Origin: a candidate division WOR-3 bacterium
GTDB lineage: Bacteria > SDB-A
Direction: 5' to 3'
Assembly (NCBI GenBank): GCA_016934535.1
Contig: JAFGSQ010000004.1
Span: 1 to 43,921 of the forward strand
DNA length: 43,921 nt
Part shown: positions 84 through 8,113 of the stretch, piece by piece
Numbering within the stretch: position 1 is the first letter of the stretch
Layout: every line of letters begins with the position of its first letter
The notes under the pieces: generated by a model
Told to the model about the DNA's origin: nothing
What the model saw: only the letters and a program-made list of their open reading frames with translations
The model's database searches: none
Made by a program: the position numbers and the translations under genes

Positions 84-671
84 CTAACTGCCTGTTTTCC
101 CCATCTCAAAAGCTTTCATGTTTATTTCGAACGCTTTTTCAGGAAGTCTTTCCCTGACTGCTTTTTCCCAGGATTTTTGAGTGATTTCCGGCATTTTTGA
201 AGATACGGCTCCTATGAGGAAGACGTTCATTGTCCTCATGTCGTTGAGAGTCTGAGCCGCTTCAACCGCATTGACAAACAGAAGGTTTTTTGCCCCGACT
301 ATGGACGTCAGTTTTTCTTTTATGTCGCCGGGATACTCAAAATTGCCGACCGCCACAGGGAGGGGGTCTATCCGCATTTCGTTGACCGCGAGAAACCCCC
401 CATCTTTAAGAAAATGGAGCTGACGCAGTGATTCGAGAAGTTCAAATGAAAGAAGTATATCGGCTTGACCGCAGGTTATTACGGGAGAAAACACTTTTTT
501 TGCGTATTTTACGGAAGAAGTCACGCTTCCGCCTCTTTGTGACATTCCGTGTATTTCACTTTTTTTTACGTCGAATCCGGAATCGAGTGCGGCGAGAGCT
601 ATAATGTCAGCCGCCACAAGAATTCCCTGGCCGCCGACGCCGGCTATCATAATGCTTTTATTCCTGGCCAT
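84..671 (-). CDS. iorB: Indolepyruvate:ferredoxin oxidoreductase, beta subunit (IorB)
   Basis: This is the small subunit of the enzyme that oxidatively decarboxylates aryl 2-oxo acids such as indolepyruvate and phenylpyruvate to aryl-CoA, reducing ferredoxin in the cytoplasm. The N-terminus shows the family's glycine-rich GVGGQGIL motif followed by the conserved HGMSQRGG stretch, both typical of the pyruvate/2-oxoacid oxidoreductase gamma-type domain. The length of 195 residues is normal. I chose the ATG at 671 (MARNKS) rather than the in-frame ATG at 686, because an AAGGAG ribosome site overlaps the upstream ATG and sits seven bases before 671. The gene overlaps the 3' end of iorA by 14 bases, so the two subunits are probably translationally coupled. 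Confidence 0.93.
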   Translation of the reverse strand: MARNKSIMIAGVGGQGILVAADIIALAALDSGFDVKKSEIHGMSQRGGSVTSSVKYAKKVFSPVITCGQADILLSFELLESLRQLHFLKDGGFLAVNEMRIDPLPVAVGNFEYPGDIKEKLTSIVGAKNLLFVNAVEAAQTLNDMRTMNVFLIGAVSSKMPEITQKSWEKAVRERLPEKAFEINMKAFEMGKTGS

Positions 672-2412
672 TTTCGACTCCTTCATTGATTTTTATCGCT
701 TTCTTGGGGCACAAGGAGGCACAGAGTCCGCATCCCGCACAGAACATGGGATTTATGTTGGATTTATTCTCCCTGAAAGATATCGCTGGACAGCCAAGTC
801 CCACGCATATCCTGCAGCCCACGCATTCGTCGTGGTTGACAATGTAAATTTTTCCGTAAGAGCGTTTGGGTACGAGAAAAATGCAGGGTCTCGTGGCGAT
901 TATTACAGATACTCCGTCGTGAGAAAGAGATTTTTCAAAAGCATTTAAAACCGCCGGTATGTCGTGGGGATCAACTTTATGAATATCTTTGACTCCAAGA
1001 CCGATCACCGTCTTTTCTATGTCAATTTTAACGTGGTCGCCGTAGTTGAGCGTTTTTCCTGTTCCCGGATGTCCCTGATGACCTGTCATGGCTGTCGTTG
1101 AATTGTCGAGAATGACGACTATACCGCGGCTCTTGTTGTAGACCATGTTGGCGAGACCTGTCATTCCGCTGTGGAAGAAAGTCGAGTCTCCGATTACCGC
1201 CACTGTTTTTTTGCTCAGTTCGACCGTTTCTGATTTTTCCATTCCGTGGGCGTTGGATATCGAGGCACCCATGCAGACAGTCGTGTCAAGGGCGTTCAAC
1301 GGCGGAAATGCGCCCAGAGTGTAACATCCTATGTCTCCGGTGGCCGGCAGTTTCAGTTTTGATATGGCGTAGAAAACGCCGGTGTGAGGACATCCCGGGC
1401 AAAGGGCGGGAGGACGGGGAGGAAGACCCTGAACAGGAACTTTCAAGGTTTTTTCTTTTTTGAGAGCTTTTTGGAGTTTCTCCTGATCGAGCTCGTCCAC
1501 CATGGGAAATACGTCTTTTCCTATTACTTTAATTCCGGCAGTTTTCAATTCGTTTTCTATGAAAGGATCGTTTTCTTCGACGACATAAACTTTTTTATAT
1601 TTTTTAGTCACTTCTTTTATTACGTCGAGATTGAGAGGCCAGCTCATTCCGATTTTCATGAAGTCCATCTCGGGAAATGCCTCCCTGGCGTAAAAATATG
1701 ATATTCCCGAGGCTATTACGAGAAAATCGGATTTTTTTACGGGTTTTCGGTTGAGTTTGGATTTTCCTGCAAATTCGATCAGCTTTTCTGTCCTTTCTTC
1801 GACGAAAGCATGTCTGACTCTGGCGTGCGTAGGAACTATAATTCTCTTCTTTATGTCTTTTACGTAAACTTTATTTTCATGTTTCTTTTTATCGCCGATT
1901 ATAACTGCTGTTTTTGAGTGACATACGCGGGTTGTCATTCTCATGAGGACCGGCGTGTCGAAATTTTCCGAGATATCAAGCGCTTCAATAACAAAGTCTT
2001 TTGATTCCTGGCTGTCTGATGGTTCGAGACATGGTATTTTAGCGGCTCTCGCGTAGTGTCTGTTGTCCTGTTCGTTCTGAGAGGAATGCATGCCAGGATC
2101 GTCGGCGGTGATTACGACAAAACCGCCTGTTGCGCCTATGTAACTCATTGAAAAGAGGGGGTCGGCGGCTACGTTGAGGCCGACGTGCTTCATGGCGCAA
2201 AGAGCCCTGGCTCCAGCCATCGAAGCACCTGCGGCTACTTCGAGGGCGACTTTCTCGTTGACCGACCATTCTTTATAAATATCGCCGTATTGTGCGATAT
2301 TTTCCATAATTTCAGTGGAGGGTGTTCCCGGGTACGCCGCGGCGACTTTCACGTCGGCTTCGTAAGCTCCTCGGGCTACTGCTTCATTGCCGGACAGAAG
2401 TACTTTTTCCAT
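658..2412 (-). CDS. iorA: Indolepyruvate:ferredoxin oxidoreductase, alpha subunit (IorA)
   Basis: The large catalytic subunit pairs with IorB to form a thiamine-diphosphate, iron-sulfur oxidoreductase for aromatic 2-oxo acids. The N-terminal pyrimidine-binding half contains AAYPGTPSTEI, the C-terminal half has the CPGCPHTGVF and GDSTFFHSG motifs of the ThDP-binding domain, and the last 60 residues hold two ferredoxin-type cysteine clusters (CVGCRICVGLGCP and CAGCGLCASLCP). The length of 584 residues fits the family. The preferred start is the ATG at 2412, placed five bases after a GAGG ribosome site; an in-frame GTG at 2418 overlaps that site. The iorA-iorB order is standard and implies amino-acid fermentation under anaerobic conditions. 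Substrate preference among aromatic 2-oxo acids cannot be read from sequence. Confidence 0.94.
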   Translation of the reverse strand: MEKVLLSGNEAVARGAYEADVKVAAAYPGTPSTEIMENIAQYGDIYKEWSVNEKVALEVAAGASMAGARALCAMKHVGLNVAADPLFSMSYIGATGGFVVITADDPGMHSSQNEQDNRHYARAAKIPCLEPSDSQESKDFVIEALDISENFDTPVLMRMTTRVCHSKTAVIIGDKKKHENKVYVKDIKKRIIVPTHARVRHAFVEERTEKLIEFAGKSKLNRKPVKKSDFLVIASGISYFYAREAFPEMDFMKIGMSWPLNLDVIKEVTKKYKKVYVVEENDPFIENELKTAGIKVIGKDVFPMVDELDQEKLQKALKKEKTLKVPVQGLPPRPPALCPGCPHTGVFYAISKLKLPATGDIGCYTLGAFPPLNALDTTVCMGASISNAHGMEKSETVELSKKTVAVIGDSTFFHSGMTGLANMVYNKSRGIVVILDNSTTAMTGHQGHPGTGKTLNYGDHVKIDIEKTVIGLGVKDIHKVDPHDIPAVLNAFEKSLSHDGVSVIIATRPCIFLVPKRSYGKIYIVNHDECVGCRICVGLGCPAISFRENKSNINPMFCAGCGLCASLCPKKAIKINEGVENGQE

Positions 2413-2525
2413 TTTCACCTCATTCTTGAAGTTTTTTAAAAAATACCACGGAACAGCAGTTTCAGTCGAGGAATTTTTGGGGAGAAAACATTTTTACTTT
2501 AAAAAAAAGTTGATTTTTCAGTCGA

Positions 2526-2570: not shown

Positions 2571-3488
2571 ATGAAACCGATTATTTTATCTGCAATTTTG
2601 GCCCTCGCGGTTTTTTCGCCGCTTTTTTCAACAGACCCATATTCCGGAGCGGGAACCAGCGGATTCAGTTTTCTTAAAATCACCGGATCTGCTAAATCCG
2701 TAGCTATGGCGAGAACTGGTATAGCAGGAGACGCGTCGTTCGGACTGAATCCGGCTTCGTACTCGAAATCCGGGAAATTTCTGAGCACTTCTTACTGCTA
2801 TCTTATGTTTTCCACTCACACGGGATCTTTTTCGTACACGCACCCTCAATCCTTCGGCATAGTTTCCGGCGGTATCGACTATCTCACTTCTCCGGGAATA
2901 GACAAGACGGACCAGCAAGGCAATATACTCGGGGAGTTCTCATATTCGATAATAATGCCTGGCCTTGCATTCGCTAAAGATTTGTCGGAAAACATAAGCG
3001 CCGGAGCAGAGGTGAAATTTCTTTACAGTTCTGTTGACGAATTCAACGCGGCGGTTTTGTCTTTAGGCGCGGGAGCCATTTACGGTTTTTCAGACATTGA
3101 TGGTTTATCAGCCGGTATAGCGGTTGAAAATCTTGGATTGACGCTCAAAGCATATGACGAGGAAAAAGATCCTTTACCCGTCAAATTCACCGGTGGAATA
3201 TCATTTTCGAGGAATTTTTACACGCTGAACGCCGATTTTTCGAAAGCCTCGGACACGAGATTTATCATAGCTTTTGGAGGCGAAGTCAAGCCTTACAAGA
3301 TGATAGCGTTCAGGGCTGGTTATTCGACAAAAGGGACAGAATATAAAACCGGAGATTCCAACGACCTCATGTCGGGTTTTAGTTTTGGAGCGGGTTTTTT
3401 CATACAAAACCTCTCTCTCGACTATTCATTTGTTCCGATGAAAGATCTCGGATACAGTCACACAATAGGCCTGAACTTCAGTCTGTAA
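2571..3488 (+). CDS. PorV/PorQ-like outer-membrane beta-barrel protein
   Basis: A 305-residue exported protein with an N-terminal signal peptide (hydrophobic through about residue 20) followed by alternating strands typical of an outer-membrane barrel. The segment GSAKSVAMARTGIAGDASFGLNPAS matches the family signature around residues 45-65, in which a conserved Ala/Gly-rich stretch precedes an NPA motif, as in PorV, PorQ and UPF0164 proteins. In type IX secretion systems these FadL-like barrels shuttle or hold cargo at the outer membrane. A second, more canonical member lies at 26474, directly after the PorU-like sortase. A GGAGG ribosome site lies six bases before the ATG. The gene is followed after 19 bases by ppdK, an unexpected partner. 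The family assignment is good; the specific role is inference. Confidence 0.75.
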   Translation: MKPIILSAILALAVFSPLFSTDPYSGAGTSGFSFLKITGSAKSVAMARTGIAGDASFGLNPASYSKSGKFLSTSYCYLMFSTHTGSFSYTHPQSFGIVSGGIDYLTSPGIDKTDQQGNILGEFSYSIIMPGLAFAKDLSENISAGAEVKFLYSSVDEFNAAVLSLGAGAIYGFSDIDGLSAGIAVENLGLTLKAYDEEKDPLPVKFTGGISFSRNFYTLNADFSKASDTRFIIAFGGEVKPYKMIAFRAGYSTKGTEYKTGDSNDLMSGFSFGAGFFIQNLSLDYSFVPMKDLGYSHTIGLNFSL

Positions 3489-3507: not shown

Positions 3508-6500
3508 ATGCCCGCAACCAATCAAACAAAAAAAGTTTCCGAAAAAAACAAACTTATTTATTTTTTCGGCAAAGGCAAAGCCGACGGAAACGCCAAAATG
3601 AAAGAAATACTCGGAGGTAAGGGAGCCAACCTCGCGGAGATGACTAACATAGGACTGCCCGTTCCTCCGGGATTCACAATTTCCACTATAGTATGCAAAC
3701 TTTATTACGAAGCGGGTAAAAAATGGCCCGCCGGTCTTCAGACGGAGATTGAAGAAAATCTTAAAAAACTGGAAAAAGCGACAGGTAAAAGATTCGGAGA
3801 CAATCAGAATCCTCTTCTGATCTCGGTTAGATCCGGCGCGGCTTCTTCAATGCCGGGCATGATGGACACAGTATTGAACATCGGCCTCAACGACGAATCA
3901 CTTGCAGCCATTGCCAGCCTGACAGACAATCCCAGATTTGCGTGGGATTCATACAGGCGCTTCATACAGATGTTCGGCGATGTAGTCATGGGCGTCCCTC
4001 ACTCGGCTTTCGAAGAAGAATTGAAGAGAGTCAAAATCCAGTACGGCAAAAAACTCGACGTCGAACTTACGACCGAAGAATTGAAAGAGACGGTGCAGGG
4101 TTTTAAAAGTATATACAAAAAATTCACAAAAGAAGATTTTCCGAAAAACCCGAAAGATCAGCTCTTCAAGGCGATAAACGCGGTGCTCGAATCCTGGAAC
4201 AACGAAAGAGCAGTTAAATACAGAGAGATTCACGACATCAAACATCTTCTCGGAACCGGAGTAAACGTTCAGGCAATGGTGTTCGGCAACATGGGCGAGA
4301 CGTCTGGAACGGGAGTTTGTTTCACGAGGGATCCGGGAACCGGCGAAAAAGTCATACACGGTGAATTTTTGATGAACGCTCAGGGAGAAGACGTTGTCGC
4401 AGGAATAAGGACTCCTCTGCCTATAGAAGAGCTCGGAAAAATACTGTCTGAAAACTACAACGAGCTTATAAAAATATGCAACAGGCTTGAAAATCATTAC
4501 AAGGACATGCAGGACCTCGAATTCACGATAGAACAGGGCAAGCTTTACATGCTTCAGACGAGAAACGGCAAGAGGAACGGAACGGCCGCAGTAAAGATAG
4601 TCAGCGAAATGGTCTCTGAAAAGCTCATTACCAAACAGGAAGCGCTGATGAGGCTGAACGCCGATTATATTGACCAGCTTCTGCATCCTTCTTTCGCAGA
4701 AGAAGACCTCAAGAAAGCGACCGCTCTCACTAAAGGGCTCCCTGCATCACCGGGAGCGGCAGTGGGACAGGTGGTTTTTACTGCTGTAGACGCGGTTAAA
4801 TGGGCTGAAGAAGGAAAAAGCGTAATCCTCTGCAGAGTCGAAACAAGCCCGGAAGATGTGGCTGGAATGCATAAAGCCAAAGGCATCCTGACTTCAGTAG
4901 GCGGAATGACGAGCCACGCAGCTGTCGTAGCGAGAGGATGGGGAAAATGCTGTGTTGTCGGCGCAGGCGACGTAAACATAAATTACGATGAAAAAACTAT
5001 GAAAATCGGCGGAAAGCTTTTCGTCGAAGGCGACAACATCTCCATTAACGGTTCGACCGGTAATGTTTATGAAGGTTTGATTCCAACGAGATCCACAGCC
5101 ATGTCGGAGGATTTCAAGACGATCATGAAATGGGCCGACGAAGTGAGAAAACTGGGCATAAGAACAAATTCGGATTCACCTGAGGACACAAAAAAAGCGG
5201 TATCTCTCGGAGCGGAAGGAATCGGACTTTGCAGAACCGAACACATGTTTTTTGCCGAAGGCAGGATAAGCGCTTTCAGAAGACTCATACTTTTCGCATA
5301 CGAATCAAAACGCCTCGAGAAATTAATTGATAAAGCGGGAGAGAGCGAACAGATAGAATACCGCAAACAGCACAACTTGTCCTTCACCGAGTACAAAAAG
5401 GCTCTGGATGAGCTCCTGCCTTATCAGAAAAACGACTTTGCCGGTATATTCGAAGCTCTCGAAGGAAGACCGGCGACCATAAGACTTCTCGATCCGCCTC
5501 TTCACGAATTCCTTCCGAAAGACCAAAATGACATGGAGAATCTCGCTTCTGTTACCGGAATGCCTGTTGAAAAGATAAGACAGATATCCGAGGAACTACA
5601 CGAACAGAATCCGATGCTGGGACACAGGGGATGCAGGCTCGGTCTCACATATCCCGAAATATCCGAAATGCAGGTCAGAGCGATAATCGAGGCGGCAATC
5701 GAAGTGAAAAGCAGTAAAAACATAGAAGCTCTTCCGGAGATCATGATACCTCTCGTCGGCGATTACAAGGAGCTTAAGCTTTCGAGAGAGCTCGCTCAGA
5801 AAGTCATAGACAAGGTTTTTCTGGAAAAAGGCCTGAAACAGGGATACATTAAATATCTAATAGGCACGATGATAGAGGTGCCGAGAGCCGCTCTCACTGC
5901 CGACGAAATTGCCGAATACGCTGATTTCTTCTCTTTCGGAACGAACGATTTGACCCAGATGGGATCGGGATTTTCAAGAGACGATGCCGGAAAGTTTCTT
6001 GGTGAATATGTCAGTATGGGAATATACGAAAAAGATCCTTTCCAGACACTCGATAAGACGGGTATTGGTAAAATGATAAGAATAGCCGTCGCGCTCGGAA
6101 GGGAGAAGAAGAAAAACCTGAAAATCGGCATATGCGGGGAACACGGAGGAGATCCTTCATCGATATATTTCTGCGACGAAGTCGGTATGGATTATGTCTC
6201 CTGCTCGCCTATGAGAGTGCCCATAGCGAGACTCGCCGCGGCGCAGGCAGTTTCTGTGAACTCTTCAAAAAAAGCCGAACCGGTGAAAACCAAAAAGACG
6301 GCGGGACCGGTTAGGAAAAAAACAGCGGATAAAGCGCAGAAAAAAGTTTCAAAGAAAAAAACCGCTGCCAGGAAGCAGGCTGGCAAAAAAACCTTAACTA
6401 AAAAGCCCGTCTCCAGGAAGAAGAGCGCGATGAAAATAAAGGTTAAAAAATCTGCCGTCAGAAAACCTTTGGCTGGAAAAAAGACCGCAAAAAAAGCCGT

Positions 6501-6663
6501 TTCGAAAAATCCTGTGATAAAAAAAACGGCGTCCAGAAAGATTTCTACCAAGAGACCTTCAGCCAAAAAGCCTTTGATTAATAAAGCTGCGATAAAAAAG
6601 ACAGGGGTCAAAAAGGGATCTCCCAAAAGGTCAAAATCCGTGAGGACTAAAAAAGGCAGATAA
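3508..6663 (+). CDS. ppdK: Pyruvate, phosphate dikinase with a lysine-rich C-terminal extension
   Basis: PPDK reversibly interconverts pyruvate, ATP and phosphate with PEP, AMP and pyrophosphate. The ATP-grasp N-terminus shows GGKGANLAEMTNIGLPVPPG, the central phosphohistidine domain carries GMTSHAAVVARG with the catalytic His at residue 470, and the C-terminal PEP-binding barrel carries GTNDLTQMGSGFSRDDAG and CGEHGG with the catalytic Cys at 876. The enzyme proper ends near residue 915, about the normal family length. An extra 136 residues follow, containing 45 Lys and 9 Arg but only one Asp and one Glu, rich in KKTA and KKPV-like units and resembling histone H1-like or AlgP-type tails. The tail is in frame with no interruption. 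An AAGGAGG ribosome site precedes the ATG. The catalytic call is secure; the function of the tail is unknown. Confidence 0.97.
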   Translation: MPATNQTKKVSEKNKLIYFFGKGKADGNAKMKEILGGKGANLAEMTNIGLPVPPGFTISTIVCKLYYEAGKKWPAGLQTEIEENLKKLEKATGKRFGDNQNPLLISVRSGAASSMPGMMDTVLNIGLNDESLAAIASLTDNPRFAWDSYRRFIQMFGDVVMGVPHSAFEEELKRVKIQYGKKLDVELTTEELKETVQGFKSIYKKFTKEDFPKNPKDQLFKAINAVLESWNNERAVKYREIHDIKHLLGTGVNVQAMVFGNMGETSGTGVCFTRDPGTGEKVIHGEFLMNAQGEDVVAGIRTPLPIEELGKILSENYNELIKICNRLENHYKDMQDLEFTIEQGKLYMLQTRNGKRNGTAAVKIVSEMVSEKLITKQEALMRLNADYIDQLLHPSFAEEDLKKATALTKGLPASPGAAVGQVVFTAVDAVKWAEEGKSVILCRVETSPEDVAGMHKAKGILTSVGGMTSHAAVVARGWGKCCVVGAGDVNINYDEKTMKIGGKLFVEGDNISINGSTGNVYEGLIPTRSTAMSEDFKTIMKWADEVRKLGIRTNSDSPEDTKKAVSLGAEGIGLCRTEHMFFAEGRISAFRRLILFAYESKRLEKLIDKAGESEQIEYRKQHNLSFTEYKKALDELLPYQKNDFAGIFEALEGRPATIRLLDPPLHEFLPKDQNDMENLASVTGMPVEKIRQISEELHEQNPMLGHRGCRLGLTYPEISEMQVRAIIEAAIEVKSSKNIEALPEIMIPLVGDYKELKLSRELAQKVIDKVFLEKGLKQGYIKYLIGTMIEVPRAALTADEIAEYADFFSFGTNDLTQMGSGFSRDDAGKFLGEYVSMGIYEKDPFQTLDKTGIGKMIRIAVALGREKKKNLKIGICGEHGGDPSSIYFCDEVGMDYVSCSPMRVPIARLAAAQAVSVNSSKKAEPVKTKKTAGPVRKKTADKAQKKVSKKKTAARKQAGKKTLTKKPVSRKKSAMKIKVKKSAVRKPLAGKKTAKKAVSKNPVIKKTASRKISTKRPSAKKPLINKAAIKKTGVKKGSPKRSKSVRTKKGR

Positions 6664-6689
6664 TCTTTATCACGAAAACATGATATCCT

Positions 6690-6713
6690 GCCCGCGGTTT
6701 TAAAACCGCGGGC
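6690..6713 (+). terminator. Perfect 24-base palindrome, probable terminator after ppdK
   Basis: GCCCGCGG TTTTAAAA CCGCGGGC forms an eight-pair GC stem that can extend through the AT-rich centre. It begins 26 bases after the ppdK stop and is followed by TCTTTCTC, a weak U-rich tract. It lies 26 bases before the ugd start. Termination is the simplest reading; the imperfect U tract leaves room for partial readthrough or a protein-binding site. Confidence 0.55.
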
Positions 6714-6739: not shown

Positions 6740-8113
6740 GTGAGTAGAAAAACACTGACCTGTATAGGAGCCGGTTACGTCGGCGGAGTTACAATGGCTG
6801 TAATAGCCGAGAAGTGCGAGGATTATAAAGTCATTGTGACGGATGTCGACGCCGAAAAGATAAAAAGGTGGAACACCGATGATCTTCCTATTTATGAACC
6901 GGGTCTTCTTGAAACAGTAAAAAAGGCCAGGGGCAGAAATCTTTTTTTCACTGACGATGTCAAATCCGGAATAAGGGATGCTGACATAATATTTGTCTCC
7001 GTCAACACCCCGACGAAAACATTTGGAGAAGGTGCGGGTAAATGCGTCGACCTGCAGTATTGGGAGAAGACCGCGAGGGATATTCTCGAATCTTCCGACC
7101 AAGGAAAAATAGTCGTCGAAAAGAGCACTCTGCCTGTAAAGACCGCCGAAGCCATGAAAAAAATACTGGAATCAAACAAGAAAGGGCTCAAGTATGAAGT
7201 CATTTCCAATCCCGAATTCCTCGCAGAAGGTTCGGCAATAAGAGATCTCGAATTCCCTGACAGGGTGTTGATAGGATCCGCCTCTTCAAATGAAGCCATG
7301 AAGGCGAGGGAAGAAGTTGTCGAGATATACTCGCACTGGGTGCCCAAAGAAAAGATTTTCACGAGCAATATCTGGAGCGCAGAACTGTCGAAACTGATCT
7401 CCAACGCATTTCTCGCCCAGAGAATTTCTTCAATAAATTCCATAACTCCTCTTTGCGAAGCGACGGGAGCAGACATATCCGAAATCTCCCGCGCCGTCGG
7501 CCTGGACACGAGGATTGGCGGTAAATTTTTAATGCCGAGCGTCGGGTTCGGAGGATCATGTTTTAAAAAAGACATTTTGAACCTCGTCTATATCTGTGAG
7601 AATTATTCTCTCAAAGAAACTGCGGAATACTGGGAAAATGTTTTGAGAATAAACGAATATCAGCAGGAAAGGTTTTTCCTGAAAATGCTGGGATCCATGT
7701 TCAACACTATCGCGGGAAAGAAAATCGCAGTCTTCGGTCTCGCTTTCAAAGCCGACACTGACGACACCCGCGAATCACCGGCAATTTACATAGTTAAAAA
7801 ACTTCTTGCCGAAAACGCCGAGGTCACACTTACGGATCCTAAAGCGCTGAGGAATGTTTCGCTGGCGTTTGGAGATGACGTAAATAAAATCAAGTTGACT
7901 GAGGACCCTTACGAAGCGGCTGAAAAAGCGCACGCTATAGCCGTCGTGACAGAGTGGGACTTATATAAAAAGCTCGATTACAAAAAGATTTTCGACAGTA
8001 TGTCCCAGCCCTCATTCATTTTTGACGGAAGAAACATTTTGGACGGACAGAAGCTTTTCGACATTGGATTCAGTTTTTTCTCTTTGGGAAAACCGCCGTT
8101 AATAAGAGATTGA
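6740..8113 (+). CDS. ugd: UDP-glucose 6-dehydrogenase, animal/plant-like type
   Basis: This enzyme oxidises UDP-glucose to UDP-glucuronate with two NAD+, supplying precursors for capsule, LPS or exopolysaccharide. The N-terminal Rossmann fold begins with GAGYVGG at residues 10-16. The central domain has NPEFLAEGSAI and the catalytic cysteine motif GFGGSCFKKD with Cys274, and the C-terminal UDP-binding domain has GLAFKADTDDTRESPA. The 457-residue length and the LNLVYICE stretch after the cysteine resemble eukaryotic-type UGDH more than the shorter E. coli Ugd. The start is a GTG preceded by AAAGGAG. It appears to be a single-gene unit between a hairpin and the htrA promoter. Its product may feed the glycosyltransferases elsewhere in this window. 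Confidence 0.95.
   Translation: MSRKTLTCIGAGYVGGVTMAVIAEKCEDYKVIVTDVDAEKIKRWNTDDLPIYEPGLLETVKKARGRNLFFTDDVKSGIRDADIIFVSVNTPTKTFGEGAGKCVDLQYWEKTARDILESSDQGKIVVEKSTLPVKTAEAMKKILESNKKGLKYEVISNPEFLAEGSAIRDLEFPDRVLIGSASSNEAMKAREEVVEIYSHWVPKEKIFTSNIWSAELSKLISNAFLAQRISSINSITPLCEATGADISEISRAVGLDTRIGGKFLMPSVGFGGSCFKKDILNLVYICENYSLKETAEYWENVLRINEYQQERFFLKMLGSMFNTIAGKKIAVFGLAFKADTDDTRESPAIYIVKKLLAENAEVTLTDPKALRNVSLAFGDDVNKIKLTEDPYEAAEKAHAIAVVTEWDLYKKLDYKKIFDSMSQPSFIFDGRNILDGQKLFDIGFSFFSLGKPPLIRD

Follow-up and report, generated by a model that had tools for sequence, protein, structure and literature searches.

The window analysed here, a stretch of 43,921 nucleotides from a candidate division WOR-3 bacterium (contig JAFGSQ010000004.1; the genome is called G000 below), contains a long ORF for pyruvate, phosphate dikinase (PPDK; EC 2.7.9.1) that continues, without interruption, into a lysine-rich C-terminal tail. 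The positions of this ORF, of its parts and of its neighbours are collected in Table 1.

Table 1. Features of the window (position 1 is the first nucleotide of the stretch)
Feature	Position	Strand	Basis or remark
tRNA, contig end	3-74		
Two-subunit 2-oxoacid:ferredoxin oxidoreductase (POR and TPP-enzyme/ferredoxin subunits)	84-2418	-	upstream of PPDK, opposite strand
305-aa protein directly upstream of PPDK	2571-3488	+	signal-peptide-like start, PorV-like outer-membrane resemblance, no Pfam match
PPDK ORF, 1051 aa	3508-6663	+	ATG to TAA, open throughout
PPDK catalytic core, residues 1-915	3508-6252	+	ATP-grasp, phosphohistidine and PEP/pyruvate-binding domains
Catalytic phosphohistidine His470 (T468-S469-H470), in GGMTSHAAVV	4915-4917	+	sequence, alignment
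Active-site Cys876 (GICGEHGGD)	6133-6135	+	sequence, alignment
H1-like basic tail, residues 916-1051	6253-6660	+	composition, periodicity, pLDDT, HC2 match
TAA stop of the PPDK ORF	6661-6663	+	
Intrinsic-terminator-like hairpin, 10-bp stem, just 3' of the tail	6690-6713	+	
UDP-glucose/GDP-mannose dehydrogenase, syntenic downstream gene	6740-8113	+	Pfam PF03721/PF00984/PF03720
RNase P RNA (class A), contig end	43333-43683	-	
tRNA, contig end	43771-43844		
tRNA, contig end	43854-43921		

The core of the protein matched the full-length equivalog model TIGR01828 with 1332.6 bits over residues 15 to 914 (cut-off 843), and Pfam recognized PPDK_N, PEP-utilizers and PEP-utilizers_C in it. Residues 26 to 916 were aligned by phmmer to PDB entries 9pzl/1kbl, AlphaFold2 predicted an ordered, confident core, and comparison of this model with the PDB PPDKs 5jvl/1vbg by Foldseek gave TMt values of 0.88 to 0.91. 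Both H470 and C876 fell in invariant columns of an 18-sequence alignment. Judged from its sequence, the ORF is a catalytically complete PPDK with predicted activity; the original prediction had described a complete enzyme with both catalytic residues, and the full-length TIGR01828 match and the presence of H470 and C876 bear this out. The protein shares with known PPDKs (TIGR01828; PDB 1kbl, 1vbg, 5jvl) the whole core, all domains and both catalytic residues, but it adds a basic disordered extension of about 135 residues, whereas the best-matching bacterial and plant chains have 873 to 876 residues. Most PPDKs that we examined end 5 to 10 residues past an ...ARLAAAQ motif. The statement that PPDK normally ends near residue 880-900 is therefore sound as a rule, but the exceptions are many.

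The tail of 136 residues contains 45 Lys, 9 Arg, 1 Glu and 1 Asp, so that our recount reproduced the composition given earlier exactly. Its net charge is about +52, versus -7 for the core, and AlphaFold2 gave pLDDT values of about 25 to 35 and no secondary structure over residues 923 to 1051. The basic residues are ordered: the tail has 18 isolated K/R pairs against 7.9 expected, a number reached by 0 of 1000 shuffles, and their autocorrelation peaks at lag 5 (z = +5.0) with depletion at lags 2 and 3 (z about -4), a KK pair occurring about every five residues. The lag-5 peak was also found in the PPDK tails of G002 (+5.3), G339 (+6.9), G015 (+3.9) and G163 (+4.1), and the same autocorrelation test gave no such peak for the tails of G001, G132 and G209. 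We looked for a DNA tandem repeat under the pattern and found none, which rules out a slippage repeat in the DNA as the source of the tail. Since, in addition, the Ala, Thr, Val and Ser residues of the tail are written in many synonymous codons, the pattern is a repeat at the protein level. Lysine codons are used in AAA:AAG proportions of 32:13 in the tail and 61:21 in the core.

The tail resembles HC2 (Pfam PF07382), the histone H1-like protein of Chlamydia. Against a cut-off of 40 bits, the tail alone scored 38.4 to 38.7, the whole protein 32.0, and the genome search, with flanks, 44.2; among the tails of relatives, that of G002 scored 25.3 bits and that of G001 gave no match. None of four residue-shuffled copies of the tail was matched (38.4 bits with the real order). 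This loss upon shuffling rules out that the HC2 match comes from composition alone, and thus the H1-likeness of the tail is more than a matter of composition. With a score around the cut-off, we do not claim that the tail is a member of the HC2 family. Both are built of K, A, T, V and P, have KK pairs in pentads and are disordered, as predicted for the tail, but HC2 is a free small nucleoprotein whereas the tail is part of a 1051-aa enzyme ORF.

The tail is not peculiar to the window's genome. A K-rich PPDK tail with the same start point is present in the three other genomes of the phylum that we examined (91 aa in G001, 174 aa in G002 and 29 aa in G003), none being without it; the absence of the tail from close relatives, against which the original prediction was to be checked, was thus not what we found. 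In G000 and in its congeners G001 and G002, the PPDK stop is followed by one and the same dehydrogenase gene. Since three independent genomes share this arrangement of tail and downstream gene, it is very unlikely that 6240-6670 contains a false join, such as the chimeric join near 6250 that had also been considered earlier. An assembly or frameshift artefact, in which PPDK would have been fused to an H1-like gene, is strongly opposed by this synteny together with the orthologues, similar PPDK tails being found in many other genomes, and we regard its probability as negligible.

Between congeners, identity was 82-84% in the core and 42-51% in the alignable part of the tail; no other part of the protein changes as quickly as the tail, in length as well as in sequence. 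Alignments of the tail are uncertain, so that substitution counts there are indicative only. A change from Lys to Glu takes one transition and a change from Lys to stop one transversion. Across the four tails of the phylum, 8 of 430 residues (about 2%) are acidic, and no stop occurs among about 170 Lys codons. On the strength of these sequence comparisons, the tail is coding and constrained for charge while its sequence drifts. Any function of the tail must need charge and not sequence, because the tail evolves fast and has shrunk to 29 aa in G003.

To see how far the tail extends beyond the phylum, the PPDK C-terminus with its tail was used as a query against 386 diverse genomes and gave a match in 319. 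Our criterion for a basic tail, kept fixed throughout, was a length of 20 aa or more with a K+R content of at least 25% and a net charge of at least +8. By this rule 27 of the 147 PPDK ends that we read carry a basic tail (26 besides the window's own), a fraction that is not an estimate of prevalence because these PPDKs were chosen partly for tail signal; among the 319 genomes, 26 is the lower bound for the number with such a tail. The 27 proteins span at least 16 families, the window's own included (at least 15 others), and different sampled genera have the tail in common in families f13, f25, f66 and f130. The distant loci with a basic tail that we fetched have a G+C content of 0.51 to 0.75, the window one of about 0.45. 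On a FastTree core tree, the tail trait required 13 changes, 11 of them forced by well-supported branches, compared with 25 for shuffled labels. When the tree was built instead from the last 235 residues under a mixture model, 14 changes were needed, only 4 of which were forced by starred branches. These trees make several independent origins of the tail likely; they do not fix the exact number and do not tell gains from losses.

One candidate carrier, L193, with a match to 1046, was rejected as it ends normally. Two other departures from the usual PPDK were seen in this survey. In family f93, three genomes (L265, L266, L276) have a conserved PPDK tail of a different kind, about 65 residues long, amphipathic and of mixed charge (...VEDAYSKAETTAKDVYSKAESGLKNL...KKLFDDIKKKIKK). 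The PPDK cores at L015 and L019 (genomes G017 and G023) contain a zinc-ribbon-like insertion with four Cys in CxxC pairs (CEKCGGELDESFTCGTCGG / CPVCGGRLNKDGVCEVCG), just past the GTNDLTQ...SRDD motif.

As a comparator, we fused the C-terminus of the G000 enolase to this PPDK tail and used the product as a second query against the same 386 genomes. This query had a match in 362 of the 386 genomes, and among the matches listed none ran stop-free more than about 8 residues beyond the enolase end into the tail. For PPDK, about 16 of the matches listed ran well into the tail without a stop, 2 of which (G233 and G287) represent a different kind of extension.

We also scanned G000 itself, counting 40-residue windows with at least 12 Lys and at most 3 acidic residues in six-frame ORFs; this count on the DNA was used because the HC2 genome search is insensitive as a census of tails. 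The scan covered 1.99 of 2.23 Mb (89%), in stretches cut at 20-kb edges. Over this part of the genome, the PPDK tail accounted for 100 K-rich, acid-poor windows and the next ORF for 22, and the sole other clear H1-like sequence was a free 40-aa protein, MAVKKKATTAKKTCKTAKPAAKKTVKKAAAKKPAAKAKKK. The gene of this free protein (MAVKKKATTAKKTCKTAK...) lies on contig C37 (L252:19477-19599, + strand), with SD-like and TTGACA/TATAAG-like elements upstream. Its counterpart in G002 has 53 aa (L036, - strand) and adjoins the same HEAT-repeat-like upstream gene.

Pyruvate kinase (PF00224) was found in none of the four phylum genomes G000 to G003 but in 14 of 14 control genomes, so PPDK probably catalyzes the PEP-pyruvate step in the phylum. 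The presence of a tail was unrelated to pyruvate kinase loss over 67 genomes (11/26 versus 18/41, p = 1), and this loss is thereby ruled out as the driver of the tail. The DUF299 regulator gave no signal either (2 versus 4 genomes). As the tail correlates neither with pyruvate kinase loss nor with PPK1 (see below) or DUF299, we found no metabolic reason for it.

We propose, with a probability of roughly 60%, that the PPDK tail is an electrostatic, histone-H1-like tether that holds the enzyme on nucleic acid. PPDK would have acquired a disordered, polycationic H1-like tail, and its charge would do the tethering. In other organisms PPDK forms a dimer, and here the flexible arms of such a dimer would together bear about 100 positive charges; at about +52 per subunit, nucleic acid binding would be expected without sequence specificity. 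The tether would place PPDK on the nucleoid or on RNA/ribosomes. In the pyruvate-forming direction, PPDK uses PEP, AMP and PPi. DNA and RNA reactions as well as tRNA charging set PPi free, and the last of these also yields AMP. A nucleic-acid-bound PPDK would be well placed because PPi and AMP arise in tRNA charging and polymerization, and a speculative benefit would be that the enzyme sits where these co-substrates appear. A further-reaching proposal is that H1-like tails have repeatedly brought PPDK to RNA/DNA, where the enzyme would rebuild ATP from AMP and PPi that tRNA charging and nucleic-acid synthesis release. Such recycling, coupled in space, would be undescribed before; we consider this proposal quite unlikely.

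The main rival to a tether is tolerated low-complexity sequence. Under such generic, non-adaptive accretion, the exposed C-terminus of PPDK would simply put up with K-rich tails, which at most would serve solubility. The great variability of the tail in length and sequence, its scattered occurrence, which takes many changes on the tree, the want of a metabolic correlate and the quite different, amphipathic tail of the f93 PPDKs would all fit this explanation. Against it, acidic residues have stayed at about 2% although Lys to Glu is a single transition, the order of KK pentads is significant in several lineages, and the tail has been kept across genera in f13, f25, f66 and f130. Moreover, enolase in the same genomes is without such a tail among the matches listed, and the scanned 89% of G000 holds no other such protein except the free H1-like one. 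The ordered pattern, the retained charge, the near-absence of similar stretches from the rest of the scanned proteome and the comparison with enolase all speak against a purely neutral account, and we rate accretion as rather unlikely.

The polyanion held by the tail might instead be polyphosphate, coupling PPDK to PPi/polyphosphate metabolism. Lysine-rich disordered regions bind polyphosphate non-covalently (PMC12345225; PMC12077175), and PPDK is a PPi enzyme. However, PPK1 (PF02503) is absent from G000 to G003, which makes polyphosphate a less likely partner than nucleic acid, and PPK1 shows no association with the tail (4 of 23 tailed versus 5 of 23 untailed genomes). The polyphosphate-binding PASK motif is, besides, serine- and lysine-rich but also acidic, whereas only 2 of the 136 tail residues are acidic. 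We therefore find a polyphosphate tether very doubtful. The H1-like, polyanion-binding character given to the tail in the original prediction is supported (order-dependent HC2 similarity, KK pentads, predicted disorder, conservation in the phylum and recurrence on PPDKs of unrelated bacteria), but polyphosphate, in genomes with no PPK1, is disfavoured. Lastly, translation might also start inside the tail, for example at the in-frame ATG at 6430 (MKIKVKKSAVRKP...), and yield a free H1-like protein. An AGGAAG-like element precedes this ATG, the tails of G000, G001 and G002 have an in-frame internal Met, and G000 has, at another locus, a free H1-like protein of 40 aa that begins at a start of its own. 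Yet the Met positions are unaligned between tails, Met is absent from the tail of G003 and from most distant tails, and A+G-rich DNA yields SD-like strings by chance, so that we hold internal initiation to be highly improbable.

In comparison with known systems, the nucleic-acid tether that we favour has a likeness in HupB, TopA and Ku of actinobacteria, which also carry a lysine-repeat C-terminal tail on a folded protein. The PPDK tail, predicted to be disordered, C-terminal and built of K repeats, fits the HupB/TopA type; however, HupB, TopA and Ku act on DNA already, whereas PPDK is a metabolic enzyme. In HupB and TopA (topoisomerase I), the lysine-repeat tail makes the protein bind DNA more tightly or the complex more stable (PMC5676037), and prokaryotic K-rich low-complexity regions are concentrated in DNA/RNA-binding proteins (PMC6821194). 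An intrinsically disordered RNA-binding segment is likewise appended to another enzyme, but, unlike the PPDK tail, that segment is N-terminal and the RNA bound is the enzyme's own substrate. The pyruvate kinase PykA of Bacillus subtilis, which has a PPDK-like PEPut domain, is tied to DNA replication (PMC9009071). PykA is like PPDK a PEP/pyruvate enzyme, and its link to nucleic acid metabolism is functional; this link depends on the catalytic domain and the folded PEPut domain and not on a basic tail, in contrast to what we propose for PPDK.

We found no description of a lysine-rich PPDK tail in the literature searched. The PPDK core and the H1-like tail are each known, and their recurrent combination appears to be undescribed. 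The lysine-rich, H1-like tails known from bacteria belong to proteins that work on DNA or RNA anyway; the present kind was found repeatedly, in separate branches, on a single enzyme of central carbon metabolism. Its distribution provides many natural pairs of tailed and untailed PPDKs for testing. If the tail is indeed a tether, it would be direct evidence of central metabolism spatially coupled to the sites that make PPi and AMP.
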